A DNA stretch of 64,000 bases from Frankiales bacterium. Lineage in GTDB: Bacteria > Actinomycetota > Actinomycetes > S36-B12 > CAIYMF01. The stretch is from positions 1 through 64,000 of the forward strand of contig WGLY01000032.1 in assembly GCA_016125335.1 (NCBI GenBank), read 5' to 3'. Below the pieces are notes generated by a model. The model was not told the DNA's origin. It was given only the letters and a program-made list of their open reading frames with translations, and did not search any database. The translations under genes and the position numbers were made by a program. Of this stretch, positions 38,391-57,214 are shown piece after piece; the first letter of the stretch is position 1; each line of letters begins with the position of its first letter.

Positions 38391-38552
38391 GGTGCTACCT
38401 CCGAGAGCGCCTGGTCTGAGAGAGGTCAGTATCGCCGCGCTGTGTCCGCCAGGCCTAGAGTCGCGTCAGATCATGTTGTCGACCGCCCGTTCCAGGCAGT
38501 GAACGACGGCCCGTCATGGCACGCATCGGTCGGTTCGTATCGGAGGTCGTAG

Positions 38553-38918
38553 GTGGAGATCCCCAGGATGACCGACGAGGACAAGGCGCGGTTCCTCGCG
38601 CTGGTCCCGGACCGGCCAGACGTCGTCGTGAAGCCGATGTTCGGCAACCTCGGGGCGTACGTGAACGGCAACATGTTCATGGGCTCGTTCGGTGGTGACG
38701 TCGGCGTGAAGCTGTCGGCTGAGGACCGTGAGGCCCTGCTGGCGATCGCGGGAGCCGGCCCGTTCGGGCCGCCGGAGCGTCCGATGGGCGGCTACGTCAC
38801 GCTGCCCTCGGCGTGGCGCTCGCCACGCTCGAAGGCGACCTCGTGGATCGCCCGGTCCCTGGCGTTCGTGGCGGAGATGCCGCCCAAGGCCGCGAAACCG
38901 CGGAAGCAGCGGGCCTGA
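38553..38918 (+). CDS. TfoX/Sxy N-terminal domain protein
   Basis: A 121-residue protein with the TfoX N-terminal domain: VVVKPMFGNLGAYVNGNMFMGSFGGDVGVKLS and later GYVTLPSAW. The C-terminal TfoX domain is absent and the end is Lys/Arg-rich. The GTG start has GGAGG seven bases upstream; an ATG at 38568 would shorten it by five residues. TfoX relates to competence control in Proteobacteria; single-domain forms in actinobacteria have unknown function. Confidence 0.85.
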   Translation: MEIPRMTDEDKARFLALVPDRPDVVVKPMFGNLGAYVNGNMFMGSFGGDVGVKLSAEDREALLAIAGAGPFGPPERPMGGYVTLPSAWRSPRSKATSWIARSLAFVAEMPPKAAKPRKQRA

Positions 38919-38954
38919 GGCGGGCGCACCTCGGCAGGTGGCCACGTGGCGCGT

Positions 38955-39227
38955 TCAGTCGGAGCGCGTAGATCGGAAGCCGGACAGGAACCCGATGCTC
39001 GAGACGACGTAGGGGATCGCGTAGTTGGCGGCCACGCGCGCCGCGGTCGCAGGGCTGTGATCACCCGAGGTCAGCACGGCGAACTGGTTGACCACGGTGA
39101 GCAGGGTTCCGACGACGAGTGCGATCCGGGCGGCGGGGCGAACCGTTCGGCCCCGCGCGATGAGTGTGGCGCACTCGCTCCATCTCGACCACGCCAGATC
39201 CGTCGCTCGTTCCTCGGCAACGCCCAT
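38955..39227 (-). CDS. nrtS: NrtS-like small nitrate/nitrite transporter
   Basis: A 90-residue membrane protein with two helices. The first (RIALVVGTLLTVVNQFAVL, about 34-52) and second (ANYAIPYVVSSIGFLSG, about 67-83) match the NrtS pattern, including VVGTLL-xx-NQ and the IPY-VSS segment. NrtS is a small nitrate/nitrite transporter described in marine bacteria and cyanobacteria. AAGGAG lies before the ATG. Its presence in element B, next to element A with nar genes, suggests a shared theme of nitrate use. Recognition is by motif only. Confidence 0.7.
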   Translation of the reverse strand: MGVAEERATDLAWSRWSECATLIARGRTVRPAARIALVVGTLLTVVNQFAVLTSGDHSPATAARVAANYAIPYVVSSIGFLSGFRSTRSD

Positions 39228-39390
39228 GGTCCACTCCTTGTCCGCCGGCTCGGGAACCCTGCGGGAATGGCCGACGATTCCCGACGGGTTCCCGGGCCGT
39301 CCGGACGAACGTGGGCTGGCCCACCGACGAGTGCCGCGAACGCTCCTACCGTCGTCACGCTCGTCCGAGCACGTAACCAGAGGAGACGAC

Positions 39391-39849
39391 ATGACCACGA
39401 CTACATCCACCACGGTCGCCAAGGTCGGCGCATCGCCCGCATCGCGCACCGTCGTCGCGGGGGTCGTCGGAGGCCTCGCCGGCGGCATGGTCTTCGGGAT
39501 GATGATGCAGATGATGGGCTTCATCCCGATGATCGCGGCGCTGGTAGGGAGCAGCTCGGTCGCTGTCGGTTGGGTGGTGCACCTGGCCATCTCGGCTGTC
39601 ATCGGCGCGTTGTTCGGGTTGCTGCTCGCGGGGCGCGCTCTGCGACTCGGCGCTTACGCGGGCGCCGGTCTTGTCTACGGGGTGGTGTGGTGGGTGCTCG
39701 GCCCGCTCGTGCTGATGCCGGCCAAGCTCGGGATGCCGCTGTTCCAGTTCAACGACACCGTCTGGAAGTCCTTGATGGGGCACATGATCTACGGTCTCGT
39801 GCTCGGCTTGGTCGCCGGATGGGTCGTGCGCCGGAACGCGGATGCCTGA
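39391..39849 (+). CDS. Small four-helix membrane protein
   Basis: A 152-residue membrane protein with four hydrophobic segments, rich in Gly and Met (GGLAGGMVFGMMMQMMGFIPM; VHLAISAVIGALFG; GLVYGVVWWVLGPLVLMP; GLVLGLVAGWVV). It resembles small DUF6789-type membrane proteins. AGAGGAGACGAC precedes the ATG, and it overlaps the thioredoxin-like gene. No function is known. Confidence 0.75.
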   Translation: MTTTTSTTVAKVGASPASRTVVAGVVGGLAGGMVFGMMMQMMGFIPMIAALVGSSSVAVGWVVHLAISAVIGALFGLLLAGRALRLGAYAGAGLVYGVVWWVLGPLVLMPAKLGMPLFQFNDTVWKSLMGHMIYGLVLGLVAGWVVRRNADA

Positions 39850-40111
39850 CCGTTCGGGGAGTGGCCAGCGGCTCACCGTGCTGGTGTCCGGCGACTGTCC
39901 CGGGTGCGGTACGGCACGGTCGGTCGCCGCTGACGTCGCCCGCGCGCTGCCTGCCGTGGAGGTCGAGGTCGTCGACGTCGACCTCCACGGCGTCCCATCC
40001 GGGCTCGCGTTCGTAGGCACGCCGACCTACGTGCTCGACGATCGGGTGGTCTCGTTGGGGAACCCGCGTGCGGAGGACCTGGTGACCCTCATCGATGGAG
40101 CGCGACGGTGA
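39842..40111 (+). CDS. Thioredoxin/glutaredoxin-like protein
   Basis: An 89-residue thioredoxin-fold protein. It has a CPGC active site in VSGDCPGCGTARSVA near residue 19, the beta strand VEVEVVDVDLHG and the cis-proline motif GTPTYVLDD. It should work as a small thiol-disulfide oxidoreductase. It overlaps the membrane protein on its left and the Crp/Fnr gene on its right, so all three form one operon. Confidence 0.85.
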   Translation: MPDRSGSGQRLTVLVSGDCPGCGTARSVAADVARALPAVEVEVVDVDLHGVPSGLAFVGTPTYVLDDRVVSLGNPRAEDLVTLIDGARR

Positions 40112-40854
40112 CGACGGCCGCCCGGCCGCCGGGTTGGAGTCCGGATCGCTGGGCGCCCGAGTGGCGGTTGGCGGAGGTCGACATCTTCCGGGACCTGCCT
40201 GCGTCGGACATGGAACGGATCGCCCGGGCCGCACCCATGCGCGAGGTCGGGGCGTCGACCGTTGTGTATCGCCCCGGCGATGAGCACCCGGTGCTGTTCA
40301 TCCTCAAACGTGGACGGGTACGGGTCTACCGGTTGGCCGAGGATGGCCGCAGTCTGACGATGTCGATCGTCGAGCGTGGCGAGATCTTCGGTGAGATGCC
40401 CGAGCTCGGCCTGCGCATGGCGGGCTCGGGGGCGGAGACCCTCGAGCCGAGCCTGGTCTGCCTCATGAGCCGTGACGACGTGGAGCGGCTCGTGCTCGGC
40501 GACGGGCGGGTTGCTGCCAGGCTGGCCACGACGTTGGGGGAGCGCGTGTCGGAGCTCGAACGCCGGCTCGAGGACGCGGTGTTCCGCTCGGTCCCGTCGC
40601 GCGTGGCCTCGACTCTCGCGCTGTTGGCAGGCTCCGGCGACGACGACGTGAGGTTGACCCACGAGCAGCTCGCCGACCTGGTGGGGACCACGCGCGAGAC
40701 GGTGACAAAGGTGCTCGGCGACCTGCGGGGCCGGGGGCTGGTGACGTCGAGGCGCGGGCGGATCCGCGTGCAGGACCGTGCTGCGCTGGCCGATCTCGCG
40801 ACGTCGGGTGGATCGACGGCCGTGACCGGCGGGCACGCGGTAAGGCGGGCCTGA
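40108..40854 (+). CDS. Crp/Fnr-family transcriptional regulator
   Basis: A 248-residue regulator. It has a cyclic-nucleotide-binding-like domain (about 25-140: IFRDLPASDMERIARAAPM, LFILKRGRVRVYRL, GEIFGEMPELGLRM), a dimerisation helix, and a winged helix (about 165-230: THEQLADLVGTTRETVTKVLGDLRGRGLV). The E/R-TTRETVTK recognition helix is typical of Crp-type DNA reading. No N-terminal Cys cluster of Fnr kind is present, so direct oxygen sensing is unlikely. GTG start, overlapping the thioredoxin gene. Confidence 0.9.
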   Translation: MTTAARPPGWSPDRWAPEWRLAEVDIFRDLPASDMERIARAAPMREVGASTVVYRPGDEHPVLFILKRGRVRVYRLAEDGRSLTMSIVERGEIFGEMPELGLRMAGSGAETLEPSLVCLMSRDDVERLVLGDGRVAARLATTLGERVSELERRLEDAVFRSVPSRVASTLALLAGSGDDDVRLTHEQLADLVGTTRETVTKVLGDLRGRGLVTSRRGRIRVQDRAALADLATSGGSTAVTGGHAVRRA

Positions 40855-40855
40855 G

Positions 40856-42277
40856 TCAGCGGGTGAGGGCTCGACGCGCGGCCAGAAGGGTGCGCACGGC
40901 CCTGGAGGCGGCGGGCGCGGCGAGCCCGGCGCGCACGACGTCGATGGCCGCGTTCCAGGGCCCGTCCCCGTACGTCGGGTACGGGTGAGTCGTCGCCGCG
41001 AGGTCCCGCGCTCGGAGCCCGAGGCGCACGGCCAGGGTCAGTTCGGCCAGGGACTCGCCGGCCCGAGGGCCGACGACGGTCGCTCCCACGATGCGGTTCC
41101 GTGCGTCGAGGTGGAGCCTCGCGAACCCTGCCGTCCTCCCGTCCGCCACGGCGCGGTCCACGTGATCGTGCAGCCGGGTCACCGAGCGAACGCCCGGGTC
41201 GTCGGCACCCGCGCCGACCGCCGCGACCTCCGGGTCGGTGAACGTCACCCGTGGCACCGCGCGCCCTGTGACGGCTCGTCGCAGGCCCAGGACGGCGTTG
41301 GTGGCGGCGATGCCGCCGTGGACGCCGGCGACGTGGGTGAGCTGCGGATGCCCGGTGAGGTCGCCCGCCGCCCAGATCCGAGCGTTGCTGGTGCGCAGGT
41401 GGCGGTCGACGACGACGTTGCCGCGCGCATCGCATCGGATCAATGCCCGGTCGAGGTCCAGACCGCTCGTGGCCGGTGTGCGACCGACCGCCACGAGGAT
41501 CCGGTCGAACGGCACGTGCTCGCTTCCACCGACGATCACGTCGCCCCCAGCGGGGGAACCTGTCACGGCCGTGACCGCGTGCCCGGTCAGGACCCGGACG
41601 CCGTCGCGGCGCAGCGCAGCGGTGACGAGCGCCGACGCGTCGGGGTCCTCACGGGGGAGCAGACGCAGCAACGACTCGATGACGGTGACGTCGCTGCCGA
41701 GTCGCGCGAACGCCTGCCCCAGCTCGCAGCCGATGCCGCCACCGCCCAGCACCACCAGGCGAGGGGGCAGGGCGTCGAGCTCCCACAGGGTGTCGCTGGT
41801 GAGCGGATCGACGTCGGCGAGCCCTGGGAGGGAGGGGATCGTGGGACGGGCACCGGTGGCCAGCACCGCGCGCTCGAAGGGCAGCGTCTCGTCGCCCACA
41901 GCCACGTCGCATGGTCCGGTGAACCGGGCGCGGCCGTGCACAACGCGTACGCCGGCTCGCTCCAAGGCCGCCGGGGCGTCGTCCGGCTCGATCGTGGCGA
42001 TCGCGGCACGCACGTGCTGCATCACGTCGGCGAAGCGCACGGTGACCGCCGCGTCGATACCGAGCGGCGCGGCGCCGCGCGCGTGTGCGGCAGCAGCCGC
42101 TGCGGCCAGCAACGCCTTCGACGGGACGCACCCGGTCCACAGGCAGTCGCCCCCGGTCCGTTGCTGCTCGACGAGCACGACCTCGGCACCTAGGGCCGCC
42201 GCCGTCGCCGCAGCCACGATCCCTGCGGTTCCTCCGCCTACCACCACGAGATCTGGCGCGCGCCTGCCCCTGGCCAT
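40856..42277 (-). CDS. FAD-dependent pyridine nucleotide-disulfide oxidoreductase (mercuric reductase-like)
   Basis: A 473-residue class I flavoprotein disulfide reductase. It shows the FAD-binding VVVGGGTAGIVAA motif (about 10), the redox-active GGDCLWTGCVPSK (CxxxxC, about 43-48), the NAD(P)H site VVLGGGGIGCELGQAFA, the second FAD motif RIWAAGDLTG and the C-terminal HPYPTYGD helping the active site. The C-terminal Cys pair of true MerA is absent and there are no mer genes nearby, so mercury reduction is unlikely. AAGGACGTCAGG precedes the ATG. It converges on the Crp/Fnr gene and diverges from the methyltransferase set. Confidence 0.88.
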   Translation of the reverse strand: MARGRRAPDLVVVGGGTAGIVAAATAAALGAEVVLVEQQRTGGDCLWTGCVPSKALLAAAAAAAHARGAAPLGIDAAVTVRFADVMQHVRAAIATIEPDDAPAALERAGVRVVHGRARFTGPCDVAVGDETLPFERAVLATGARPTIPSLPGLADVDPLTSDTLWELDALPPRLVVLGGGGIGCELGQAFARLGSDVTVIESLLRLLPREDPDASALVTAALRRDGVRVLTGHAVTAVTGSPAGGDVIVGGSEHVPFDRILVAVGRTPATSGLDLDRALIRCDARGNVVVDRHLRTSNARIWAAGDLTGHPQLTHVAGVHGGIAATNAVLGLRRAVTGRAVPRVTFTDPEVAAVGAGADDPGVRSVTRLHDHVDRAVADGRTAGFARLHLDARNRIVGATVVGPRAGESLAELTLAVRLGLRARDLAATTHPYPTYGDGPWNAAIDVVRAGLAAPAASRAVRTLLAARRALTR

Positions 42278-42426
42278 CCTGACGTCCTTCCGGGTCGCCG
42301 GCCGCCCTTGTCGCGTGCGCAACCCGATGACCTCCGGGATTGCTTCCCGACCGCGACGCCACCCGTCGGGAAGGAATCGGTCTGCCCGTCGGGTTGCTGC
42401 GTCGAGGTCGTCGCTGCGGAGGTGCC

Positions 42427-42636
42427 ATGCCCGAGACCATCCCGTCGTACACGCCCAGCTGGTGCGGCGACATCGAGGACGATGCCGCGGCTGCCGCACC
42501 GTTGATGCGAGGCAACGGCGGGAACCGATCAGTGTCGACGGTCGTGCTCCGCGACGCCGAGACGATCACCGAGCGGTCGATCTCTGAGCTGCTCGACTGG
42601 TTGCGGCCCGGGGGTGCCAGGTCGGGCGAGCGGTGA
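42427..42636 (+). CDS. Small protein of unknown function
   Basis: A 69-residue protein from an ATG with GGAGGTGCC directly upstream. The sequence has a WCGDIEDDAAAAAPL segment with one Cys and a hydrophobic C-terminal helix (ISELLDWLRPGG). Its stop overlaps the GTG of the methyltransferase by four bases, which supports its reality. No domain is recognised. Confidence 0.6.
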   Translation: MPETIPSYTPSWCGDIEDDAAAAAPLMRGNGGNRSVSTVVLRDAETITERSISELLDWLRPGGARSGER

Positions 42637-43439
42637 GAACTCCCCTCGAACGCTCGGCGGGCTGGGCCGACTACCTCCGCGACTACCACGCTGCACGGCC
42701 CGGGATCACCGAAGCGGTGATCACCCGATCGACGCACCCTGACGCCGGAACGCCTTACCAGTGGGTCGTAGCCGCGCTGCCCGTCTCGCCGGGCACGGTG
42801 GTCGATCTGGCGTGCGGCAGCGCCCCGCTGCAGCAGCACCTCCCTCCGGGAACCGGTTACGTCGGGCTCGACCTGTCCGAGCCCGAGCTGCGAGCAGGCG
42901 TGCGCGTGGGGCGCTCGGCCCTGGCCGTCGCGGATGTCGAACGGCTGCCGCTGACCGACGCGTCCGTCGACGCGGTCACCTGCTCCATGGCGATCATGCT
43001 CTTCGACAGGCTCGACCTCGTCCTTGACGAGGTCGCACGCGTGCTGCGTCCCGGAGGCACGTTCGCCACGATCCGCCCAGCGGGTCGACCGTTCGACCTG
43101 TCGGACCTTCTCCACGTCCTGCCCCTCGCCGTCGGGCTGGGTCGTCCACCCCAGCTACCTCACCGCTACCGCTCGAGGACAGTGGCCCGCCTGCTGCGGG
43201 AGCGCGGCCTCCACCTGGCACGAGACGAGGCGCTGCGCTTCGCCTTTCCGCTCGAGGGCCCGGCCGACGCGCACCTGGCCGTCCAGGCCCTGTACCTCCC
43301 GGACGTGCCGCCCGTGCGTCGACGGCGCGCCGCTGACCTGCTGGCGCGGACCGCGGGGGCTGGACGTTCGCTGCCCGTGTCGGTGCGCCGCACGGTCGCG
43401 ACCCGTGTGGTCGAGTTGGACGCCCGAGGCGATCGATGA
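42633..43439 (+). CDS. Class I SAM-dependent methyltransferase
   Basis: A 268-residue methyltransferase. The SAM-binding motif I is VVDLACGSAPLQQHL (about 56-70), followed by YVGLDLSEPEL (motif II) and DAVTCSMAIMLFDRLDLVLDEVARVLRPGG (motif IV and post-motif). The C-terminal part is Arg-rich with no further domain. The substrate is unknown; UbiE/ArsM-like small molecules are possible. GTG start coupled to the preceding small gene; its end overlaps an in-frame ATG of the sigma factor region. Confidence 0.85.
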   Translation: MRTPLERSAGWADYLRDYHAARPGITEAVITRSTHPDAGTPYQWVVAALPVSPGTVVDLACGSAPLQQHLPPGTGYVGLDLSEPELRAGVRVGRSALAVADVERLPLTDASVDAVTCSMAIMLFDRLDLVLDEVARVLRPGGTFATIRPAGRPFDLSDLLHVLPLAVGLGRPPQLPHRYRSRTVARLLRERGLHLARDEALRFAFPLEGPADAHLAVQALYLPDVPPVRRRRAADLLARTAGAGRSLPVSVRRTVATRVVELDARGDR

Positions 43440-43552
43440 CCGCCGCCTCGGGCGCCCTTGCACCCTGCCCCCCAGGATCGACCTGGGTCCGTGATCGGGC
43501 CCACGGTCCGGGTGTGCGATCGCGGCGTCGCGGGGCCGGGGATACTGGTGCG

Positions 43553-44101
43553 GTGACCGGCGCGGATCTCACGGGCGATCGTCGGGCCGAGGGCTTCGCC
43601 GCCTACGTCGAGCCCGAGATCCCCGTCCTGCTCCGCGTGGCCCGCACGCTGACGGGGTCGGCCGCGGACGCCGACGACCTCGTCCAGGAGACGCTGATCC
43701 GAGCCTACCGAGCGCTCGACTCGTTCGACGGCCGGCATCCGCGGGCGTGGCTGCTCACGATCCTGCGGAACACCGCGTCGAATCTGCGCCGCCGGACACG
43801 GCCGGACCTGGTCGACGACTGGGACGGACTGGCCAACCCGCGACCGGCGTTCGGCGCCGCGCGACCGGTGGCCGCCGACCAGCCGGTGATCGACAACACG
43901 CTCGACACCGACGTCGCTGATGCGCTGCGGGCGCTCGACGAGCGATTTCGCACTGTGCTCGTGCTCATCGACGTGCATGGGCTCACCTACGCGGAGTGCG
44001 GTGACGCGCTGGGCATCCCGGTGGGCACCGTGATGTCGAGGTTGAGCCGTGCCCGCGATCGGATGCGGACCACGTTGCGCGCCACCGGGAGGTTCGCATG
44101 A
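43553..44101 (+). CDS. ECF-type RNA polymerase sigma factor
   Basis: A 182-residue sigma-70 factor with regions 2 and 4 only. Region 2 is LLRVARTLTGSAADADDLVQETLIRAYRALDSFDG..AWLLTILRN; region 4 is ALRALDERFRTVLVLIDVHGLTYAECGDALGIPVGTVMSRLSRARDRM. The GTG at 43553 is chosen because a GATACT box lies six bases before it, compatible with a leaderless transcript; an ATG at 43436 would add 39 poorly conserved residues. It is coupled to the zinc-finger anti-sigma gene. Confidence 0.88.
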   Translation: MTGADLTGDRRAEGFAAYVEPEIPVLLRVARTLTGSAADADDLVQETLIRAYRALDSFDGRHPRAWLLTILRNTASNLRRRTRPDLVDDWDGLANPRPAFGAARPVAADQPVIDNTLDTDVADALRALDERFRTVLVLIDVHGLTYAECGDALGIPVGTVMSRLSRARDRMRTTLRATGRFA

Positions 44102-44382
44102 TGTCGATCCGGCAGGCGCTCGAGTGCCGGCGCACCCGCAAGCGGCTCCAGCGCTTCCTCGACCGCGACCCCTCGGCGCTGCTCACCACCGAGGAGGTCC
44201 GCGAGGTCGAGGTGCACTTGCAGGGCTGCGTGCGGTGCCAGGGCCTGGCTGAGGAGTATCGCAGCCTGCACCGCAGCCTGGGTCGGCTCGGCGATGCGCT
44301 GACGCCTGACGACGACGCGGTCCGGCGTGCCCAGGAGGCCCTGCGGCGCGCGACCGAGTCGATCGACCGGCCGGAGGCCTGA
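44098..44382 (+). CDS. Anti-sigma factor-like zinc-finger protein
   Basis: A 94-residue protein with the ZAS-type zinc-binding pattern: Cys9 in ALECRRTRKRL and HLQGCVRCQGL (HxxxCxxC), then a helical tail. There is no membrane helix, so it would act in the cytosol. It overlaps the sigma factor by four bases (ATGATG). Such proteins bind the partner ECF sigma and often release it under oxidative stress; the signal here is unknown. Confidence 0.82.
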   Translation: MMSIRQALECRRTRKRLQRFLDRDPSALLTTEEVREVEVHLQGCVRCQGLAEEYRSLHRSLGRLGDALTPDDDAVRRAQEALRRATESIDRPEA

Positions 44383-44384
44383 CC

Positions 44385-45464
44385 TCAGACCGTCATCGGG
44401 TGCGCGACGGGCTGCGCCGCGGCGTCCACGACGTGGCGCGCTTCGATCGGGATCGACACCCCGACGACGTCGCCGATCCGGACGGGGTCGGTGGCGGGGA
44501 CCTCGACGTGCAGGACCTGGGACCCGCAGGCAACCGAGAGTCGGTCCCGTGCGCCTGCCGCGCGTCGTTCCACCACCTGGCCGACGACATCCGCCGCCGC
44601 GTCGGTCCGGTCGACGACGCGCAACGATTCGTGGCGCAGCAGCAGCAACCCGGGTCCTTCGGCGCGCCGCGTGTCTGGGGGAAGCCGGAGCCGACCGAGC
44701 GACGAGACGTGGTCGCCCCCTGCGACCCGGCCCTCGATCGCGATGAGGCCACCGAGCAGATGATGCACGTGAGCACTGGCGGGGCGGGCGTGCAGGACCG
44801 CAGTGGCGGCGTGCTGCAGGAGTCTGCCGTCGTCGAGAACGGCGACCGAGTCCGCGATACGTGCCGCCTCAGCCCGATCATGGGTCACCAGCAGGATGGT
44901 GGGGGCCAGCATCGCGCGAAGCTCGAGCAGCAGCTCGTGCAGCTCGTCGGCCAGTGGTCGGTCCAGGGCGCTGAACGGTTCATCGAGCAGCAGGACTCGC
45001 GGCTCCCGAGCCAGAGCGCGCGCGAGGGAAACCCGCTGAGCCTGCCCTCCAGACAGAGTCGTGATCGCTCTGTCGCCCATGCCGACGATCCCCACGAGGG
45101 CGAGGTAGTCGTTGGCGACTTGTCGCGCGGTGCGACGTGAGCAGCCGCGCATCCGGGCTGCGAAGGCGACGTTGTCCCGCACGTCGAGATGCGCGAGCAG
45201 GGCAGGGCGCTGGAACACCATGGCCATGCCACGTCGCTCGGATGCCAGGCACGTGATGGTGCTGCCGTCGAGCAGGACCTCTCCGTCGTCGGGATGTTCC
45301 AGGCCTGCCACGATCCGCAGCAGCGTCGTCTTCCCCGATCCCGACGGGCCGATCAGTGCGGTGCACTCGCCCGCGGGCACGGTCAGCTCGACAGCGTCGA
45401 GCGCGGGGGTCGGTGTCCCCGTGTACCACCGGGTCACGTTGCTGATCCGAAGTTCGCCGGTCAT
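44385..45464 (-). CDS. ABC transporter ATP-binding protein (YnjD-like)
   Basis: A 359-residue ATPase. It has Walker A GPSGSGKTTLL (about 39), the ABC signature LSGGQAQRVSLARAL (about 137), Walker B RVLLLDEPFSALD (about 156) and the H-loop LVTHDRAEA. The C-terminal 120 residues form a TOBE/MOP-like regulatory region. It overlaps the permease to its right. With the two permeases and lipoprotein it makes a type I importer similar in layout to E. coli ynjBCD; substrate unknown. Confidence 0.88.
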   Translation of the reverse strand: MTGELRISNVTRWYTGTPTPALDAVELTVPAGECTALIGPSGSGKTTLLRIVAGLEHPDDGEVLLDGSTITCLASERRGMAMVFQRPALLAHLDVRDNVAFAARMRGCSRRTARQVANDYLALVGIVGMGDRAITTLSGGQAQRVSLARALAREPRVLLLDEPFSALDRPLADELHELLLELRAMLAPTILLVTHDRAEAARIADSVAVLDDGRLLQHAATAVLHARPASAHVHHLLGGLIAIEGRVAGGDHVSSLGRLRLPPDTRRAEGPGLLLLRHESLRVVDRTDAAADVVGQVVERRAAGARDRLSVACGSQVLHVEVPATDPVRIGDVVGVSIPIEARHVVDAAAQPVAHPMTV

Positions 45465-46279
45465 GGCACGAGAGCCGGTTCGACCACGCGGGTATCGGCG
45501 CGAGCGGGGCTGTGGATCATCGTCGGACGGAGCAGGGCTAGAGCCAGGAGGAGCGGCGGCAGCGCGGCCAGCATCGACACGACGGCCACGACGTGCTCGT
45601 TGCCCGTCCCAGAGGCGGCACCCGCCACGAGCAGCGGCAAGGTCACGACGGTGCCCCCACCCACGACCACGGTGACGATGTAGTCGCTGCTGGCGATCAG
45701 GAAGGCCAGGAATGCGGCGAGCGCCAGTGGCCGTCGCAGTGCGGGCGTACGGACTGCCCGGACCACCACGGAGGTGGTGGCCCCGAGCAACCGCGCCTGC
45801 TCCTCCACGGACCAGTCGTACTCCTGCAGCGCACCTCGCACGGCGAGGAAGGTGTAGGGCAGGGCCAGTCCTGCCAGCAGCAGAGCCACACCGGCGAGGC
45901 TGGGCACACGCAGGCGCAGCAGCACGGGCGTGGCCCCCAGCGCCAGCGCCAGCGGCGGGACCGCGACGGGTGACAGGAGCGCCACCTGGGCGACCCGCAG
46001 CAGTCGCGGTGGCAGAGCGCGCACCGCGAGTGCTGCGCTCGCTCCCGCCGGTACCGCCAGCGCGACCGTAAGAAGGCCCAGCGCGACCGAGGCACCGGTG
46101 GCCGCGACGAGTGCGCCGCGGTCGGCGGCCGCTCCGAGGCCCCACTGCTGGGGTAGCGGGGCCGGGTAGCTCCACCGGGTGGCGACCGACCACAGCGCAA
46201 GCGGGACAAGCGGGACGACATACCAGACGGCGAGCGTTGCTTGGAGAGCCCTCGAGCGGGTGGACGGCGGCCTGGTCAT
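45461..46279 (-). CDS. ABC transporter permease (YnjC-like, half 2)
   Basis: A 272-residue permease with six or seven membrane segments. It carries the cytoplasmic EAA-like loop EEQARLLGATTSVVVRAVRTPALRRP. The ATG at 46279 overlaps the neighbouring permease by four bases and its own end overlaps the ATPase gene. In E. coli YnjC the two permease halves are one protein; here they are separate. Confidence 0.82.
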   Translation of the reverse strand: MTRPPSTRSRALQATLAVWYVVPLVPLALWSVATRWSYPAPLPQQWGLGAAADRGALVAATGASVALGLLTVALAVPAGASAALAVRALPPRLLRVAQVALLSPVAVPPLALALGATPVLLRLRVPSLAGVALLLAGLALPYTFLAVRGALQEYDWSVEEQARLLGATTSVVVRAVRTPALRRPLALAAFLAFLIASSDYIVTVVVGGGTVVTLPLLVAGAASGTGNEHVVAVVSMLAALPPLLLALALLRPTMIHSPARADTRVVEPALVP

Positions 46280-47115
46280 GGCGTCGTCCGTGCGGGGGAA
46301 CGCAGCAGCGAGAGTCCCGCGAGCGTGGCCCCGAGGCACGCGGTCACCAGCACGGACGTCGCGGCGAACGCCTCGGGACGAGCCGCAAAATCAGTCGAGG
46401 TGAACAGTCGATAGGCCGTCTCCGGCAGGGTCTCGGGAAGGGCCGGTCCGAGCAACCAGGCAACCTCGTACGAGCCGAGCGCGTAGGTGAAGGCCACGGT
46501 GGATGCGACGACGAGCGCGGTTCGCGATGCCGGCAGGGACACTGCGAGCCAGCGTCGTCGCGCGCCCGCGCCGAGGACGGCCAACGCGTCCTCGCGCTCC
46601 TCGAGGTCGGCGGGCAACGCCGCGAGCACGACGAGCGCGATGAACGCCGACTCCTTCCAGGCGAGCTCCAGGACGACGGCCGCATACCAGTGACCGCCGA
46701 CCCACGGCGGGAAGGATCCGGGCGCGGCATGCACGATGCGGGCCAGGAACCCCGAGTCCGAGAGGAGCAGTGCGAATGCCACCGCCCCCACGAGGTGCGG
46801 CAGCGGCACGGTGGCCGCGGCCAGCGTCGCGACCACACGTCCGGTACGCCGTCCCGCTCGGACGGCCGCCACGGTCAGCAACCCGGTCGTGATCGCGAGA
46901 CAGGTGGCGGCGCTGGCGACGACCAGCCCGACGCCTAGGGACGACACGACGGGCTCGTCCCCGAGCAGGGCCCGGTACGCATCGAGGGACAGTCGCCCAT
47001 CGCCGGTGAGCGAGTCGGCGCCGAGACTCTGCAGAAGGCCGCTGGCCAGGGCGACGCCGAGCACGGCCAGCAGGGCACCTGCCGGCGCAAGCAGCAGCCA
47101 ACCGGACCGGCTCAT
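46276..47115 (-). CDS. ABC transporter permease (YnjC-like, half 1)
   Basis: A 279-residue permease with about six membrane segments. The EAA-like loop is EEREDALAVLGAGARRRWLAVSLPASRTALV. It lies between the substrate-binding lipoprotein (four-base overlap) and the second permease (four-base overlap), so all four transporter genes form one operon. Confidence 0.82.
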   Translation of the reverse strand: MSRSGWLLLAPAGALLAVLGVALASGLLQSLGADSLTGDGRLSLDAYRALLGDEPVVSSLGVGLVVASAATCLAITTGLLTVAAVRAGRRTGRVVATLAAATVPLPHLVGAVAFALLLSDSGFLARIVHAAPGSFPPWVGGHWYAAVVLELAWKESAFIALVVLAALPADLEEREDALAVLGAGARRRWLAVSLPASRTALVVASTVAFTYALGSYEVAWLLGPALPETLPETAYRLFTSTDFAARPEAFAATSVLVTACLGATLAGLSLLRSPARTTP

Positions 47116-48386
47116 GCTCCACCGGCGAGCACATGACGGCGCCACCCGTCGTCGAGGACCGGTACCCACGTCGCCGCTAGCTCGGGGTTGGCGTTTCGGG
47201 AGAGCTCGACGTACGGCGGCACTACGGCGGAGGCGGGCAGGGCCGTGAAGGCGGCCCGGTCGCCGGGGGTGAGCCGCGACTGGTCCAGGACGGTGAACTG
47301 GCCCCACACCGAGGGCTGGGCGGCAGCCAGTTGCTGGGCAGGGGAGAGGGCGAGGTCGGCCACGACTTCGGCGGCTGCCTGGTGTCCTGAGGTGCTGGGG
47401 ATGGCCAAGAAGTTGGCGTTGCCCACGGTCCCCTCGTCGAGGGGTAGCACCCGGGTTGTGCGCGGGAAGGTCCCGCGGTCGACCAAGCCGGTGAGCGTGG
47501 CCGGCCCGTACGTCATCGTGAAGTCGACCTGGCCGCCAGCAAAGAGCTGGTCCAGGGCCATGGAGTCCTTGGGGTAAGTCGCGCCCTGACGCCATAACGA
47601 GGGGGCGAGCCCCGACAGCGCCGACCACAACGCGTCTGCCTCGCTGGTGGCCTTCGAACCGTCAGGGGATGCGGGCACGGAGCGGTAGCCGCCAGCGGTC
47701 GCGTAGAGCGCCTCACGCACGAACACCGACCCGGTGAAGTCCGGTGGTGCGGGGTAGGTGAATCGGCCGGGGTGCGCCTTCGCCCAAGCGAGCAGGCCGA
47801 GCAGGCTGCGAGGCGGGTCGCTGACCCGCGCAGAGTCGTAGACGAAGGTGAACTGCGCCTTGTGCCACGGCGCTTCGCACCCGTCGACCGGTGTCCCGAA
47901 GTCATGTGTGATCAGCGGGTCGTTCGGATCGACGTACGTCATGCTCGGCAGCTGCGAGGTCCACCCGCACGCCCACAGGCCGGCCTGCCGCCCGGTGCTG
48001 AAGTTGTCCCCGTTGACCCACACCAGGTCCACCGACCCGTCCGTGACTCCCGCCTGCTTCTCGGCCGCGATGCGGTCGATAGCGTCCTTGGTGTCCGTGA
48101 TGGGGACGCGCTTGAGCGTGACGCCGAGGGCGGCCGCGGCGGGAGCCAGCACGTCGTCGACGTACGCGTTGCCCTGCGGATCCCCACTCCACATCCACAG
48201 CGACACCGACTGCCCACGTGCTGCTGCCAGGGTATGAGCCCAGGTGCCGGCCGCAGGTGATGACGTCGCACCGCCGGTTCCCGCTACCGCAGCGGAACAT
48301 GCGCTGAGAAGCAGGACGGACGAGGCCAGCAGGGCCAGGCGTGATCGGGGCACAAGGGGTCGCCACACACGTCGTGCCGACGTCAT
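47112..48386 (-). CDS. ABC transporter substrate-binding lipoprotein (YnjB-like)
   Basis: A 424-residue lipoprotein. The signal peptide ends in the lipobox LLLSACSA with the lipidated Cys at about residue 30. The mature part has the YnjB/periplasmic-binding fold (SVSLWMWSGDPQGNAYVDDVLAP, DLVWVNGDNFSTGRQAGLW, FVYDSARVSDPP). The ATG at 48386 has GAGGAGGACCG upstream. It is the first gene of the ABC operon and diverges from the YnjF-like gene. Confidence 0.85.
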   Translation of the reverse strand: MTSARRVWRPLVPRSRLALLASSVLLLSACSAAVAGTGGATSSPAAGTWAHTLAAARGQSVSLWMWSGDPQGNAYVDDVLAPAAAALGVTLKRVPITDTKDAIDRIAAEKQAGVTDGSVDLVWVNGDNFSTGRQAGLWACGWTSQLPSMTYVDPNDPLITHDFGTPVDGCEAPWHKAQFTFVYDSARVSDPPRSLLGLLAWAKAHPGRFTYPAPPDFTGSVFVREALYATAGGYRSVPASPDGSKATSEADALWSALSGLAPSLWRQGATYPKDSMALDQLFAGGQVDFTMTYGPATLTGLVDRGTFPRTTRVLPLDEGTVGNANFLAIPSTSGHQAAAEVVADLALSPAQQLAAAQPSVWGQFTVLDQSRLTPGDRAAFTALPASAVVPPYVELSRNANPELAATWVPVLDDGWRRHVLAGGA

Positions 48387-48490
48387 CGGTCCTCCTCGTG
48401 ACGGTCTGCGTTCGCCCCGGGAACACAGCGAGCCTCCCGAAGCCTTCCCAGCGCGCGGGCTGACTGGCACCGACGACAGGAGGTGATCGG

Positions 48491-49105
48491 ATGATCGACG
48501 CAGCGTTGCGTCCCCGGCTGGCAGGCGGCGTGGACCGGCTCGCCCGAGCTATCGACCGCCCGGTGGCGACACCGGCACGGCTCACCCTGCTCGGCCTCGC
48601 GCTCGGTCTCGGCGGCGCCGTCGCTGCCGCGGGCCGATGGTGGTGGGCGGCGGCGCTGCTCTGGATCGCGTCGCGCGTCGCCGACGGCCTGGACGGAGCA
48701 TTGGCGCGGCGACGGACGCCGGGGCCGTCGTCAGCGGGTGGCTTCCTCGACATCTCGGTCGACTTCGTCGTCTACGGCGCTTTCGTCGTCGGGGTGGCAG
48801 TCGGGGCGAGCGAGCAGATGCTGCCCTTCCTGCTGGTGCTGTTCGCCTACTACGTCAACGGATCGGCCTTCCTGGCCTTCTCGGCGGCGGCCGAGCGCAG
48901 CTCGGCCCGCATCGATGACGGTCGCTCGTTGTCGTTCCTCGGAGGTCTGGCCGAAGGCACCGAGACGGTCCTCGTGCACACCCTGTGGTGCCTGATCCCC
49001 TGGTGGGCGGCGCAGGTGGCCTGGGTGTGGGCCGCCTTCGTCCTGCTCAGCGGAGCTCAGCGCATCGTGGTCGGCTACCGGGCCTTGTCCGCCGCGGCGC
49101 GGTGA
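48491..49105 (+). CDS. CDP-alcohol phosphatidyltransferase family protein (YnjF-like)
   Basis: A 204-residue membrane enzyme with about six helices. The family active site D-G-x2-A-R-x8-G-x3-D-x3-D is visible as DGLDGALARRRTPGPSSAGGFLDISVDF in pieces (DGLDGALAR at about 64; GGFLDISVD at about 84). Such enzymes transfer a phosphatidyl group from CDP-diacylglycerol to an alcohol. It lies divergent from the ynjBCD-like operon, recalling the E. coli ynj cluster that ends in ynjF. ATG with AGGAGGTGATCGG upstream; its 3' end overlaps the convergent radical SAM gene by 31 bases. Confidence 0.85.
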   Translation: MIDAALRPRLAGGVDRLARAIDRPVATPARLTLLGLALGLGGAVAAAGRWWWAAALLWIASRVADGLDGALARRRTPGPSSAGGFLDISVDFVVYGAFVVGVAVGASEQMLPFLLVLFAYYVNGSAFLAFSAAAERSSARIDDGRSLSFLGGLAEGTETVLVHTLWCLIPWWAAQVAWVWAAFVLLSGAQRIVVGYRALSAAAR

Positions 49106-50538
49106 CCGATAGAGGAGCCTCCGTCTGACCGTTGCCGGACCTCGACGATCGGCAGCAGCACCCGAAGCTCGCGGTTCTCGTCGGGGTCGTAGACGCTGTG
49201 CTGGGCGCAGGCGGGGACGAGCAGGTCGGCCTCAGGGTGAGACATCGTGTACACGCAGGCCTGCAGCCGCTCCTGGACCGCCCGCACCTCCGGATCCTCG
49301 CTCACGATTCCGTCCTGGAGCATCGCCCACGCCGGTGCCACCTGCGCGGCGTCCATGAACGAATGCATGACGAAGGTCATCAGGCGCGTGCCCGCGAGCA
49401 TCTTGCGGGGGCCACCTGCTCTGCCGATCAGTCGCCAGCCGTGCTCGATGCCGAGCCATGCGGCGTGAGGATGCCGAGCGGCGACCTGAAGCGCTCGCGC
49501 GGCAGCAACCCAGAGTGGAACTCCGCCGAGCGGCACGGCAGTGAAGTGCTCGAGGAACGCGTCCCGGACTCGAACGTCTCGAGGGTCGACGTCGTCGAAG
49601 AACGGTATCCACTTCTCGCCCACCAGCACTCCGAACGCGGATCGGTTGCAGCGCGGGTCCCCCATCTGCAACGAGCGCCACGGCAGGCGAGTGCCCGCGC
49701 CACGCTCGATCTCGCCCCACACGTCGTCCCCGGTGACGTCGCGGAAACCCTCGCGCCAACGGCGGTCGTCACCGACAAACGCTGCCGGCTGGAACGACAG
49801 CATCGAGTAGCCCATCCGCATCACCGAACGCGTGACCCCCTCGACCTCCGCAACATTGCCCGGAGTCACCGTCATGTTGTGGGCCAGGTAGTAGCGCACG
49901 CCGTAGTCGCGGCGCAGCCGCTCGAACATCTCCACGAACCGACGCCGATACGGATCGAGATCCTCCTCACGGCGGGGCCTCGGCACGCCTCGGCGTCCTC
50001 GCATGAGCGAGTCGAAATGCGCTGCGAACGACAGGCGTGCGAACCGAGGCCGTCCGTCCCCACCCAGGGCCAAACTGCGCAGGTACTCCTCGTCGAAGTC
50101 GCCGTGCGTGAAGCTCATCGGCTCACGACCCGCCAGCCGCATCTCCTGCAGCGCAGCAGCATGCGACTCGGCGTCCAGCAGCGACACCTCCCCACCGATG
50201 AGCTGAGCGTGCGCGCGGGCTCCTCGCCGGCCGCGCAGATGCGCCATCTGCTCGCGAACCCGTGCGACCGTGTGAGCACCATCGACCGCGACCTTGTTCG
50301 CGTCCTCCGAGTGGTAGCACGGCGAGCAGGTCAGATTGCACCGAGGGAACACGCCGTGGGTCCCCTCGCAGCCCACCGCGATCCGGCCCACCATCTGGTT
50401 CGCCGTCCTCGCCGACTCAGGGAGTTCGGCCCACCGCCGCGAGTAGATCTGCGCGCGTTCGGTGTCAGTCACCCCCAAGGTTGCGGCCAGCTCCTGGGCG
50501 TGCTTGCGCAACGTGCCCCATGTTTGCACCACTCGCAC
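49075..50538 (-). CDS. Radical SAM family protein
   Basis: A 487-residue protein with the radical SAM cluster motif CNLTCSPCYHSED (CxxxCxxC) near residue 67-74, then a partial TIM-barrel (AQLIGGEVSLLD as the GGE motif). The N-terminal 60 residues are not typical. The C-terminal half has scattered Cys (RCNRSAFGVLVG, LQACVYTMSHPEADLLVPACAQHSVYDPDENREL). It should cleave SAM through a [4Fe-4S] cluster; substrate unknown. GTG start after GGGGAGGCACA. Its end lies within the tail of the YnjF-like gene on the other strand, so these genes are close but convergent. Confidence 0.82.
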   Translation of the reverse strand: MRVVQTWGTLRKHAQELAATLGVTDTERAQIYSRRWAELPESARTANQMVGRIAVGCEGTHGVFPRCNLTCSPCYHSEDANKVAVDGAHTVARVREQMAHLRGRRGARAHAQLIGGEVSLLDAESHAAALQEMRLAGREPMSFTHGDFDEEYLRSLALGGDGRPRFARLSFAAHFDSLMRGRRGVPRPRREEDLDPYRRRFVEMFERLRRDYGVRYYLAHNMTVTPGNVAEVEGVTRSVMRMGYSMLSFQPAAFVGDDRRWREGFRDVTGDDVWGEIERGAGTRLPWRSLQMGDPRCNRSAFGVLVGEKWIPFFDDVDPRDVRVRDAFLEHFTAVPLGGVPLWVAAARALQVAARHPHAAWLGIEHGWRLIGRAGGPRKMLAGTRLMTFVMHSFMDAAQVAPAWAMLQDGIVSEDPEVRAVQERLQACVYTMSHPEADLLVPACAQHSVYDPDENRELRVLLPIVEVRQRSDGGSSIGHRAAADKAR

Positions 50539-50658
50539 TGTGCCTCCCCATCGCTTGACCTTGGCGCGGGAACACGGTGGGCGTCACGAGGCCTTCCCGT
50601 CGCCCGATCTGTGTGCGGGCCCACACATCCCCAGGACTTCAGGCCCTAGCCTGGGTCC

Positions 50659-50940
50659 ATGAAGTTCGTGCTCGCCGCGCTCGTGGTCGCCCCGGTCGCC
50701 TACCTCATCTGGGCCTCTTGGCGGGGACGCGTCCAGGTGCGCTGCTGCGGCGTCGACGCGCGATACGACAAGCGGATGGCAGCGGCCTTCGAGGACGAGG
50801 AAGACGATGGCGACCAGATCCGCCCGCCGTCGCCGCGTTTGGCGCGATCCGGCAAGGTGTGCGTCACGCCGTCGAACCATCAGGCCCGCGCTTGGAGCGC
50901 GCTGCCCGTGCGTGAACCGACGTCGCCACCGCGATCGTAG
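50659..50940 (+). CDS. Small single-span membrane protein
   Basis: A 93-residue protein with an N-terminal membrane segment (MKFVLAALVVAPVAYLIWASW) and a basic, then acidic cytosolic part containing a CC pair (RCCGVDARYDKRM). A TAGCCT box sits six bases before the ATG, compatible with leaderless transcription. No known domain; the N-terminal helix and the neat start suggest a real gene. Confidence 0.55.
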   Translation: MKFVLAALVVAPVAYLIWASWRGRVQVRCCGVDARYDKRMAAAFEDEEDDGDQIRPPSPRLARSGKVCVTPSNHQARAWSALPVREPTSPPRS

Positions 50941-51052
50941 CTTTGGGAATGCGACCACTCGACACTGCGGAGGCGGCCGGACGAGGCTTCTGGACGCGGG
51001 TGCTCGTGATCGACGTATGGTCTGCCCGCCCGGGAGTCGAGAGGTGAGGGCC

Positions 51053-51376
51053 GTGAACGACTTGGACCTGGTCGTGTTGACGATCGCCGGCTGCCCCCAT
51101 CTGGCTCCGGCGCTGCACGATCTGCGTGTCGCGCTCGACTCACTCGGCCTGCACGACGAGGACATCCAGGTGTTCGTCGTCGACTCGCCAGATCAGGCCA
51201 TGGCTCTGGAATTTCGCGGATCGCCGACTTTCGTCGCTGGCGGCGCCGACCTCTTCCCGGAGGAGGGCAAGCCCACCGGTCTCTCCTGCCGCCTGTACCG
51301 GACGCCTTCCGGGCTGAAGGGCTCGCCCGGTGCAGAACGGCTAGCCGAACGTCTTGGTGATCGGCACACCGGGTGA
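51053..51376 (+). CDS. Thioredoxin-like DF-family protein
   Basis: A 107-residue thioredoxin-fold protein resembling DF-family (seleno)proteins and the alkylmercury-lyase-associated fold. It starts LDLVVLTIAGCPHLAPAL (single Cys, CPH), with MALEFRGSPTFVAGGADLFP (cis-Pro motif) and GLSCRLYRTPSGLKG near the end. A GTG start with GAGAGGTGAGGG upstream is chosen. It should be a cytosolic redox or metal-handling protein. Confidence 0.75.
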   Translation: MNDLDLVVLTIAGCPHLAPALHDLRVALDSLGLHDEDIQVFVVDSPDQAMALEFRGSPTFVAGGADLFPEEGKPTGLSCRLYRTPSGLKGSPGAERLAERLGDRHTG

Positions 51377-51574
51377 GCTATCCGCTGTCTTCCAAGCGGC
51401 TGCCGAAAACGGGAAGAACTGCTCGACGCCGAGATAATGCTGGGCGCGCAGGACGCGGACCCTCCCGTTCTGCACGGAGCCGTGGTCGCGGTGTCATGAA
51501 TGTGGCGCCGAAGCTGCCGCGCGCGAGCAGTGCGAGCCCTACCTCCTGTCTCGCCGGACCGAGCCGAGTGCGGG

Positions 51575-51928
51575 CTAGAAGACAAGTACCTTGTCGGCCG
51601 CGATCGTGCGCTCTGCCAACTCGTCCATGGTCGAGCGAGTCGCCCCTGGCATGAGCATGTCTTCGGAGATCCCGCGCGCGTCCATGCACGTTCCGCAACA
51701 TAGGACATCTCCTCCGTCGGCTCGTGTCACGACGGTGAGCATGCTGTCGAGCTGGTAGTAGCCATTGGGTGTCTTCTGACCCGCCATTGCGGCGGTCACG
51801 CCGTCACCCATGAGGAACACTGTCATCTCGACGCCTTCTCGCTTAGCGAGATTCCCGGCCAACCGGATTGCGTTGTAGGTCGAGTCCAAGCCGTAAGCCG
51901 AACCATTCACGATCACGAGCATCTTCAT
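51575..51928 (-). CDS. DsrE/DsrF-like family protein
   Basis: A 117-residue YchN/DsrE-type protein. It has the nucleotide-like N-terminus MKMLVIVNGSAYGLDSTYNAIRLAGNLAKR, the motif MTVFLMGDGVTAA, and the cysteine motif DVLCCGTCMDARGI (Cys pair plus Cys) that carries sulfur in sulfur-relay relatives. GGAGTACCC precedes the ATG. It suggests sulfur or thiol chemistry in this element, in line with the thioredoxin-like and flavoprotein genes. Confidence 0.88.
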   Translation of the reverse strand: MKMLVIVNGSAYGLDSTYNAIRLAGNLAKREGVEMTVFLMGDGVTAAMAGQKTPNGYYQLDSMLTVVTRADGGDVLCCGTCMDARGISEDMLMPGATRSTMDELAERTIAADKVLVF

Positions 51929-52357
51929 GGGTACTCCAGTGTGCGGCAGGTGAGGCCTCTGACGCTACGGGCTCAGTGGCACCCGAAGCACATTCGAGCG
52001 AACGGCCATGCCACGTGATGCGGATGGCGCTCGCACGCGCTCGCGATCCTCCACGGCTCGCGCTCTTCGCCCCGTCAGGGACGGTGAGCCGAATCCATCG
52101 AGCACCTCGCGAGGGAAGTGATGCGGCCCCATGATCAGCACTCGTCTTGCACTGGGTGCTCGTCGTGGCCGCGGGCCGGTCCCTCGACGTTCCGACGGGT
52201 TCGGAGAGGTTCTGTCCGCCGTCCCGTCGGGTTCGGGATCGTCCGCGCCGGCACGGATTGCGCGCTGATGGGCGTGTAGCGCTCCCGATCTGCACACCTC
52301 CCTGGTGAGTGCAGTCGTCGTCGACTGCCTGGGCTGAGGGCGGTGATGGGGGTCGTG
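51929..52357. other. Non-coding gap upstream of relaxase B (candidate transfer origin)
   Basis: About 430 bases without a convincing gene. A perfect 7-bp inverted repeat GCAGTCG-TCGT-CGACTGC lies at 52311-52328, thirty bases before the relaxase start. Two related GTTCGG-containing motifs (GACGGGTTCGG, GTCGGGTTCGG) occur at about 52193-52228. An oriT would be expected here by analogy with other MobF loci, but it cannot be named from sequence alone. Confidence 0.4.
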
Positions 52358-55513: not shown

Positions 55514-55572
55514 TTCCGTGGATCACCCGATCCGCGGGTCAGAAGCACGACCGAACACGAGGGAGACCCCGC

Positions 55573-55842: not shown

Positions 55843-55866
55843 CCACCTCGAGGGAAGGAGCGCTCG

Positions 55867-57171: not shown

Positions 57172-57214
57172 GTACGCCGCGTAGGACTTGAACCTACAAC
57201 CCGCGGATTAAGAG
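57172..57214 (-). repeat. Attachment repeat DR3 (tRNA-Lys(CTT) 3' fragment)
   Basis: Third exact copy of the 43-bp tRNA-Lys 3' fragment. Its right flank matches that of DR1 (ACGGGTCTGCGCCGTTCT), not that of DR2. Confidence 0.8.

Follow-up and report, generated by a model that had tools for sequence, protein, structure and literature searches.

A conserved radical SAM and YnjBCD-YnjF gene cassette on an integrated MobF-type element of a Frankiales bacterium

We analyzed a 64,000-nucleotide (nt) stretch of contig WGLY01000032.1 from the genome of a Frankiales bacterium (assembly GCA_016125335.1), hereafter the window, with a focus on a row of cargo genes at positions 39391-51928. Open reading frame (ORF) and family searches of the window showed that neighboring genes in this row mostly overlap or abut. 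They encode an ATP-binding cassette (ABC) importer of the YnjBCD type with YnjC split in two, a YnjF-like phosphatidyltransferase, a flavoprotein disulphide reductase and a radical S-adenosylmethionine (SAM) protein, together with regulators and small thiol proteins (Table 1). An initial annotation, made by a model from the sequence, had named these genes at this place as packed with overlaps, and all of them were found there. The ynjF gene and the radical SAM gene are convergent, with a 31-base overlap at 49075-49105.

The cargo sits in an integrated MobF-type element, between exact 33-nt repeats. This repeat occurs in three copies with no mismatches, starting at positions 7853, 37891 and 57182 (mean expectation 0.00), and the 87-nt repeats enclosing the last two copies are 91% identical. 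A relaxase, an integrase and flanking attachment repeats, as expected of an integrative mobilizable element, are all present; with the TrwC relaxase, the HTH protein, the tyrosine integrase and the exact 33-nt repeats, the label "element B" given by the initial annotation holds. Two elements, at 7853-37891 (element A) and 37891-57182 (element B), seem to lie in tandem at a tRNA-Lys site, because of the repeat copies and because the repeat sequence overlaps a tRNA-Lys(ctt) called by ARAGORN in a genome of the same genus (G280, locus L125). Each of the two has its own TrwC relaxase, HTH gene and tyrosine integrase. The window itself yielded no tRNA gene call, and the overlap with tRNA-Lys was seen in G280 only. 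The G280 backbone beside tRNA-Lys(ctt) is approximately 85% identical to that of element B, and a search for the radical SAM gene gave no match in G280; the cargo therefore seems variable. No plasmid record resembling the cargo DNA was found by megablast. Two further observations concern element A: it encodes a hemerythrin/DUF2249 protein (window 29714-30610), and a relaxase gene 80% identical to its own at the DNA level, on contig C25 of the same genome (L126, 62001-82000), adjoins an ars operon that encodes ArsR-like, DF-like (60.7 bits, cut-off 70) and ArsC-like proteins, a thioredoxin reductase, Acr3 (431.9 bits) and ArsA (810.6 bits).

Comparison with related genomes revealed that YnjBCCD, YnjF, the flavoprotein and the radical SAM protein form a conserved core and are not a random mix. 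Of 394 genomes from the class, one of them the window's, 7 have a match to the radical SAM protein (E 1e-10), 9 to YnjB (E 1e-20) and 6 to both (Fisher p 1.2e-10, without correction for kinship). A scan of genome contigs yielded 204 relatives of the radical SAM protein, and 79 loci were kept from the best 80; their titles name Actinomycetota, bar one labeled Planococcus. This locus (L079, titled Planococcus sp. APC 4015) has a cassette resembling the Microbacterium loci; the record may be misnamed, or its contig may be foreign. Neighborhood counts were made by tblastn (E 1e-5) at those 44 of the 79 loci whose flanks reach 7.5 kb or more on both sides: ynjB and each ynjC half were found at 32, ynjD at 34 (2 of these being weak ATPase matches, 26-31% identical, without ynjB), ynjF at 35 and the flavoprotein at 40. 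A VTT/TVP38 gene was present at 29 loci, a UbiE-like methyltransferase at 22, the window's methyltransferase type at 9, HAD type II at 10 and an AhpD-like gene at 6. The core was found across many actinobacterial families. We class as accessories the genes for the sigma and anti-sigma factors, the methyltransferase, Crp, the thioredoxin-like protein and DF, and DsrE lies outside the set. The single combined set read by the initial annotation thus stands as a conserved unit for its core and fails for DsrE (0/44), DF (2/44), the thioredoxin-like protein (3/44) and anti-sigma (4/44). Its genes scattered independently in relatives, the outcome that it had named as contrary, were looked for through these co-occurrence and neighborhood counts and were not seen for the core.

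The same genome carries a second copy of the cassette on contig C1, whose radical SAM protein and YnjB are 67% and 73% identical to those of the window. This copy also has the permeases, ATPase, ynjF, sigma, zf-HC2, methyltransferase, VTT, DF, Crp and thioredoxin-like genes, and several flavoprotein matches. The window genome belongs to the same taxonomic order as Candidatus Nanopelagicales STC_133 and Actinomycetales RI_321, whose stretches compared here match the named records in 40 of 40 sampled 200-mers each. In a tree, the radical SAM proteins of STC_133 and RI_321 cluster with those of the window and its C1 copy (100/99).

The radical SAM protein has the CX3CX2C cysteines C67, C71 and C74 in 39 of 39 aligned rows, and four further cysteines (C57, C297, C428 and C444) are each present in all 39 as well. 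This protein stays below the cut-off of every NCBIfam and Pfam model and scores 15.6 bits against the TrsS model NF045646 (cut-off 490). Its AlphaFold2 model has a mean predicted local distance difference test (pLDDT) score of 81.7, and after VIA-align re-ranking of the 1000 entries from Foldseek the best match was the tetraether synthase (Tes) GDGT-MAS (7tol/7tom; Z 23.2/22.5, 338 residues, 3.4 A, 18% identity), followed by viperin as the next other entry (Z 14.5). According to its structural description, GDGT-MAS binds lipid tails and joins them at unactivated carbons, and contains three Fe4S4 clusters and a rubredoxin domain, the ligands being C9, C12, C33 and H36 in rubredoxin and C73, C77, C80 and a histidine for the N-terminal cluster (PMC9433317). 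The window protein resembles GDGT-MAS in its predicted fold over the aligned residues, in CX3CX2C and in having extra invariant cysteines in the C-terminal part, whereas it has two domains fewer and falls below every family threshold. The rubredoxin and N-terminal cluster cysteines are absent from it, with C57 as the one cysteine before C67. The extra cysteines may perhaps hold an auxiliary cluster, with C297, C428 and C444 as candidate ligands of the C-terminal one. A selenocysteine was considered and rejected, since the in-frame TGA reported for G390 is merely the terminal stop.

For the flavoprotein, the initial annotation had proposed a MerA-like protein. The disulphide reductase domains were confirmed, and the MerA identity was not: TIGR02053 gave 367.2 bits (cut-off 454.45), and the C-terminal vicinal cysteine pair, a hallmark of MerA, is missing, with cysteines only at residues 46, 51, 124, 185 and 283 of 474. 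YnjF contains the hallmark motif of CDP-alcohol phosphatidyltransferases, DxxDGxxAR..GxxxDxxxD, once, starting at residue 65, and its best match among solved structures is an inositol-phosphate phosphotransferase (4mnd, E 1e-4). The predicted model of YnjB has a pLDDT of 85.7, and no sequence relatives of YnjB were found in the PDB at E 0.01.

Among the accessory genes, the DF-like protein fails the DF family (seleno)protein model NF049942, and the methyltransferase matches no NCBIfam model above its cut-off. The short ORF at 50659-50940 has a match (37.5% over 56 residues, E 4e-8) next to the sigma gene in the second cassette copy of the genome. The membrane protein at 39391-39849 has a weak 33-bit match (31%) within a DUF6789 gene of Burkholderia glumae. 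Upstream of this gene lies an inverted repeat of 23 nt (87%, window 39246-39299). One half of it, TTCCCGACGGGTT, recurs with one mismatch at 42360-42372, upstream of the flavoprotein gene (2 matches in the window vs 0.05 expected), and is a possible candidate for a regulator site. A promoter shared by the genes and recognized by the extracytoplasmic function (ECF) sigma factor found no support: simple GGAAC-type patterns hit 2 of 6 gaps of the window and 1 of 4 gaps of L010, where the gap in question spans 2 kb, and none of the 8 gaps in L011 and L012.

Table 1 Features of the cargo and of the element that carries it. Positions are those of the window; loci, relatives among the 44 loci flanked by 7.5 kb or more on both sides.
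Feature	Positions	Strand	Evidence	Loci
Left attachment repeat	37891-37923		33-nt core within longer 87-nt repeat 37849-37935	
Small membrane protein, accessory	39391-39849	+	Only a sub-threshold DUF1440 match	11/44
Thioredoxin-like protein, accessory	39842-40111	+	Pfam Thioredoxin_3; CPGC motif	3/44
Crp/Fnr-type regulator, accessory	40108-40854	+	Pfam HTH_Crp_2, cNMP_binding	13/44
MerA-like flavoprotein disulphide reductase, core, start uncertain	40856-42280	-	Pyr_redox_2, Pyr_redox_dim; CLWTGC	40/44
SAM-dependent methyltransferase, accessory	42633-43439	+	Pfam Methyltransf_11	9/44
ECF sigma factor, accessory	43436-44101	+	Sigma70_r2/r4; TIGR02937 82.8 bits (cut-off 42.9)	10/44
zf-HC2 anti-sigma protein, accessory	44098-44382	+	Pfam zf-HC2; HxxxCxxC motif	4/44
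YnjD-like ABC ATPase, core, start uncertain	44385-45479	-	ABC_tran; Walker A, LSGGQ, Walker B	
ABC permease, second half of YnjC, core	45461-46279	-	Pfam BPD_transp_1	32/44
ABC permease, first half of YnjC, core	46276-47151	-	BPD_transp_1 22.4 bits, below cut-off 26.4	32/44
YnjB-like substrate-binding lipoprotein, core	47112-48389	-	NF008633 447.2 bits (cut-off 203); LSAC lipobox-like motif	32/44
YnjF-like CDP-alcohol phosphatidyltransferase, core	48491-49105	+	CDP-OH_P_transf; DxxDGxxAR..GxxxDxxxD complete	35/44
Tes-like radical SAM protein, core	49075-50538	-	CX3CX2C; Pfam 22.3 bits, below cut-off 29.5	
Short putative membrane ORF, possible part	50659-50940	+		1/44
DF-like thiol protein, accessory	51047-51376	+	NF049942 52.2 bits, below cut-off 70	2/44
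DsrE/TusD-like protein, neighbor, not part	51575-51928	-	Pfam DsrE	0/44
MobF (TrwC) relaxase	52343-55513	+	Pfam TrwC 276 bits, AAA_30	
HTH_17 protein, putatively excisionase-like	55573-55842	+	Pfam HTH_17	
Tyrosine integrase	55867-57009	+	Pfam Phage_integrase	
Right attachment repeat	57182-57214		33-nt core within 57140-57226	

Distant relatives of the radical SAM protein were found beside arsenosugar genes in proteobacteria. A search with the protein matched one plasmid record, p1 of Cupriavidus sp. KK10, whose homologue is 29% identical over 365 residues; the profile of the window protein aligned with it at an hhalign probability of 99.7% (E 2.5e-25, 355 columns), vs 34.8% with ArsS. The p1 gene row encodes ArsS (465.7 bits, cut-off 300), TIGR04283 (277.7, cut-off 182), TIGR04282 (201.5, cut-off 134), MTAP (276.2, cut-off 274.85) and an ArsM-like protein below its cut-off (333.9 of 500 bits), along with a flavoprotein 42% identical to the window's and VTT-type, DUF692-type, PHO4-type transporter and DUF547 genes. 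The Cupriavidus homologue scores 73 bits with the Tes model and 107 with TrsS, both below cut-off, and its C-terminal FMDA..C..C stretch aligns with 7tol at negative score only; TrsS (NF045646) is the best NCBIfam name for the distant homologues, at 100-107 bits. A relative of the Cupriavidus protein (63.6%) occurs in 45 records of Burkholderia plasmids. In the one record read, from B. glumae, the annotated arsS lies two genes from the radical SAM homologue; arsS, TIGR04282, TIGR04283, MTAP, ECF sigma and zf-HC2 fall within some 13 kb, and a fusion of TVP38 with a flavin adenine dinucleotide (FAD) oxidoreductase lies approximately 13 kb from the homologue. These arsenosugar operons (that of B. 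glumae with no annotated ArsM) share with the cassette a radical SAM homologue, a flavoprotein and VTT, and also ECF sigma and zf-HC2 in B. glumae and, by sequence, a sigma-like gene in Cupriavidus, whereas the window is without ArsM, ArsS, the glycosyltransferase and MTAP and has the importer and YnjF instead.

A third proteobacterial relative, on a plasmid of Roseomonas haemaphysalidis (L139), scores 90 bits with the Tes model, below cut-off. Its operon encodes a second radical SAM protein (61 of 300 bits with the ArsS model), TIGR04282 (185 bits, cut-off 134) and a TIGR04283 match of 165 of 182 bits. The likeness to the operons above extends to the pair of Tes-like and second radical SAM proteins, VTT, FAD oxidoreductases, TIGR04282 and an ABC importer, and a metallophosphoesterase is also present; the importer, however, is of the phosphate/phosphonate type and not YnjB, and no ArsS exceeds its cut-off. 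At 13356-17382 of L139, the second radical SAM and metallophosphoesterase genes are separate and flank this phosphonate-type importer. In Streptomyces-type actinobacterial loci, which carry the window's radical SAM family itself (56-61% identical), one fused protein combines the metallophosphoesterase with an Rv1681-like radical SAM protein, and genes that are separate in one group and fused in the other suggest that the two act together. The Streptomyces-type loci also contain, in varying combinations, the flavoprotein, MTAP and TIGR04283 (224.5 bits vs a cut-off of 182 in L061). YnjB was not found in these loci. L031 and the Streptomyces-type loci encode an NAD(P)-binding flavoprotein for which the name ArsO was considered and rejected (L031, 53 bits vs 425; L051, no match at E 1e-5).

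Taken together, these observations lead us to a tentative reading, to which we give a little less than an even chance: the cargo is a conserved cassette making a modified phospholipid from an imported precursor, carried on a MobF integrative element. The reading builds on the observed gene content, conservation, motifs and model fold, from which we infer transport, a lipid product, its substrate and its control. A small polar compound would be imported by YnjB, the two YnjC permeases and YnjD, and YnjF, by analogy with its family, would transfer phosphatidyl from CDP-diacylglycerol to this compound or its product. The VTT/TVP38 family moves lipid across the membrane, and its member in relatives and in the genome's other copy could do so here. 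The Tes-like enzyme, if its modeled fold is a guide, would abstract hydrogen from an unactivated carbon, either in the lipid or in the head group, to form a new bond. The flavoprotein, joined in this subtype by the thioredoxin-like and DF proteins, might keep thiols or a metalloid center reduced; the methyltransferase might finish the product; and the ECF sigma/zf-HC2 pair and Crp/Fnr would provide control. A metalloid-containing head group is a leading candidate, a lead by analogy, because the radical SAM protein has relatives that serve in operons of the arsenosugar type. The initial annotation had likewise suggested import, radical SAM modification, methyl transfer, possible lipid attachment and thiol-based control. 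The combination of import, radical SAM and lipid attachment remains sensible, because the model aligns best with an enzyme acting on lipid tails and the YnjF motif is intact; the methyltransferase gene is an accessory (9/44).

Several results weigh against the phospholipid reading. With Foldseek alone, 7tol was absent from the best 50 matches and other radical SAM enzymes came first; the sequence profile reached only chance level against 7tol (E 0.84), behind an unrelated aldolase (0.07); and the Tes model NF045702 (cut-off 450) matched none of the window proteins at E 0.01. A similar fold alone does not prove a lipid substrate. The fold neighbors of YnjB bind sugars, glycerophosphodiesters, dinucleotides or polyamines and rank in one flat list, which does not separate these ligands. 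VTT/TVP38 was not found in the window copy, though it is present in the C1 copy and in most of the 44 loci, and 6 of the 44 have neither YnjB nor arsenosugar markers. The gene-neighborhood check that the initial annotation had proposed for YnjBCD, YnjF, radical SAM and flavoprotein gave co-occurrence in the class but a looser picture in a phylum-wide sample: the radical SAM protein was found in 10 of 396 genomes, and among the 9 loci besides the window's, of which 4 are stretches shorter than 13 kb, the flavoprotein was found at 5, YnjB at 2, a TIGR04283-type gene at 2 and none of these at 4.

Ynj sets also occur in other phyla. YnjBCD was found with YnjF, TVP38 and FAD oxidoreductase genes in Metabacillus, Falsirhodobacter and a Salmonella IncC plasmid, and with YnjF in Aliiroseovarius, while Deinococcus aetherius has YnjBCD with no YnjF annotated nearby. 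A homologue of the window's radical SAM protein was not found in any of these stretches, which likewise counts against the phospholipid reading. Since such sets occur in other phyla without this homologue, we infer that the importer, YnjF, VTT and the flavoprotein constitute an old module and that the radical SAM gene joined it in Actinomycetota. The Escherichia coli operon, whose gene order we take to be ydjXYZ-ynjABCDEF, similarly brings together a YnjB-type binding protein, the YnjC permease, the YnjD ATPase and YnjF; in the window, by contrast, YnjC is split in two, radical SAM and flavoprotein genes are added, and YnjA and YnjE are missing. One paper describes ynjABCD as a putative membrane transporter (PMC2731931).

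These sets bear on the alternative that survives best, a cassette against thiol or metal(loid) stress, in which the flavoprotein, thioredoxin-like, DF and DsrE proteins would detoxify, YnjBCD would import a protectant, YnjF and VTT would mend the membrane and the radical SAM protein would serve repair. In Metabacillus, the genes around the set include MsrA, MsrB and an AhpD-like gene of the carboxymuconolactone decarboxylase type. On the conjugative Salmonella IncC plasmid (L020, NZ_CP051400.1), YnjBCD-YnjF and TVP38/FAD oxidoreductase are accompanied by DUF692, DoxX, DUF2282, sigma, AhpD-like and HAD type II genes. Both neighborhoods argue for a stress cassette, as does the DF-like gene in the ars operon beside the sister element in the same genome. 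The conserved actinobacterial partners, however, are the radical SAM protein and the importer rather than peroxidases or Msr, AhpD-like genes being present at only 6 of 44 loci, and a repair function leaves the Tes-like fold unexplained. We consider this alternative unlikely, though it deserves to be taken seriously.

A second alternative would make the window-type cassette the salvage counterpart of arsenosugar synthesis: YnjBCD would import an organoarsenical made by others for incorporation into an arsenic-containing lipid, while the Streptomyces-type and proteobacterial operons would make the arsenosugar themselves. The radical SAM family and the flavoprotein, often with VTT, are common to both operon types, and an ArsM-like protein is encoded in four Streptomyces loci (L034, L051, L093 and L096; 191.6 bits with a cut-off of 263 in L051). 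YnjB (32 loci) and TIGR04283/MTAP matches above 80 bits (6 loci) exclude each other, with an overlap of 0 in the 44 loci (p 1.3e-4). This exclusion is blurred by weaker glycosyltransferase matches at the YnjB loci L058 and L073 (62 and 70 bits) and by L037, outside the 44, where a TIGR04283-type gene occurs together with ynjC and ynjD. Kinship is a confounder that explains part of the pattern, as the marker is found in 9 of 14 rows of one clade, with exceptions in L078, which lies inside the clade and has YnjB, and the marker-bearing L077 outside it. In Microbacterium proteolyticum (L031), two ArsR-type regulators over cut-off and ArsC-like proteins below it lie between the radical SAM gene and ynjD, consistent with salvage; at other YnjB loci, however, Ars-type matches are few: L013 has an L031-like flavoprotein at its edge, L016/L086 and L066 have weak ArsR matches, and L012/L022 have thioredoxin reductase. 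The window genome itself has neither ArsS (TIGR04167, best score 23.3 bits against a cut-off of 300, which none of 16 genomes exceeded) nor ArsM (NF008823, best score 62.3 bits against a cut-off of 263, which 5 of 16 genomes exceeded) above threshold, and actinobacterial TIGR04283 glycosyltransferase and MTAP queries gave no tblastn match in the window or L010 at E 1e-3. On balance, we regard this alternative as improbable.

A chance gathering of unrelated stress genes is hardly credible: such elements do bear varied cargo, as the similar backbone without a radical SAM match in G280 illustrates, yet a core kept in many actinobacterial families and twice in the window genome contradicts it, so that it holds for DsrE and perhaps the short ORF.

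The initial annotation had judged the combination not to be a described pathway, and our search of open full-text papers agrees, finding no description of the gene set. Each of the parts belongs to a known kind, and what appears to be new within that literature is their combination and its link to arsenosugar operons. This link, the second copy and the absence of VTT from the window copy extend the earlier reading. The YnjBCD-YnjF sets found in several phyla have no assigned substrate in the literature searched. Tying Ynj sets to a lipid-type radical SAM enzyme gives a set of genes without an assigned function a short list of tests. Relatives of this enzyme are placed in ArsS operons in two proteobacterial genera and in an ArsS-less relative operon in a third, and stand with ArsM-like, MTAP and TIGR04283 genes in Streptomyces-type loci, and, as far as the model indicates, a trimmed bacterial relative would be added to the tetraether synthase fold. 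A more specific, and still more doubtful, possibility is that Actinomycetota obtain arsenic-containing (or phosphonate-like) membrane lipids by salvage: YnjBCD would import a ready-made organoarsenical or related head group, YnjF would turn it into a phospholipid and the trimmed Tes-like enzyme would form a new bond at an unactivated lipid carbon. If this is true, the YnjBCD-YnjF sets of other phyla, that of E. coli included, would be lipid head-group salvage systems too.

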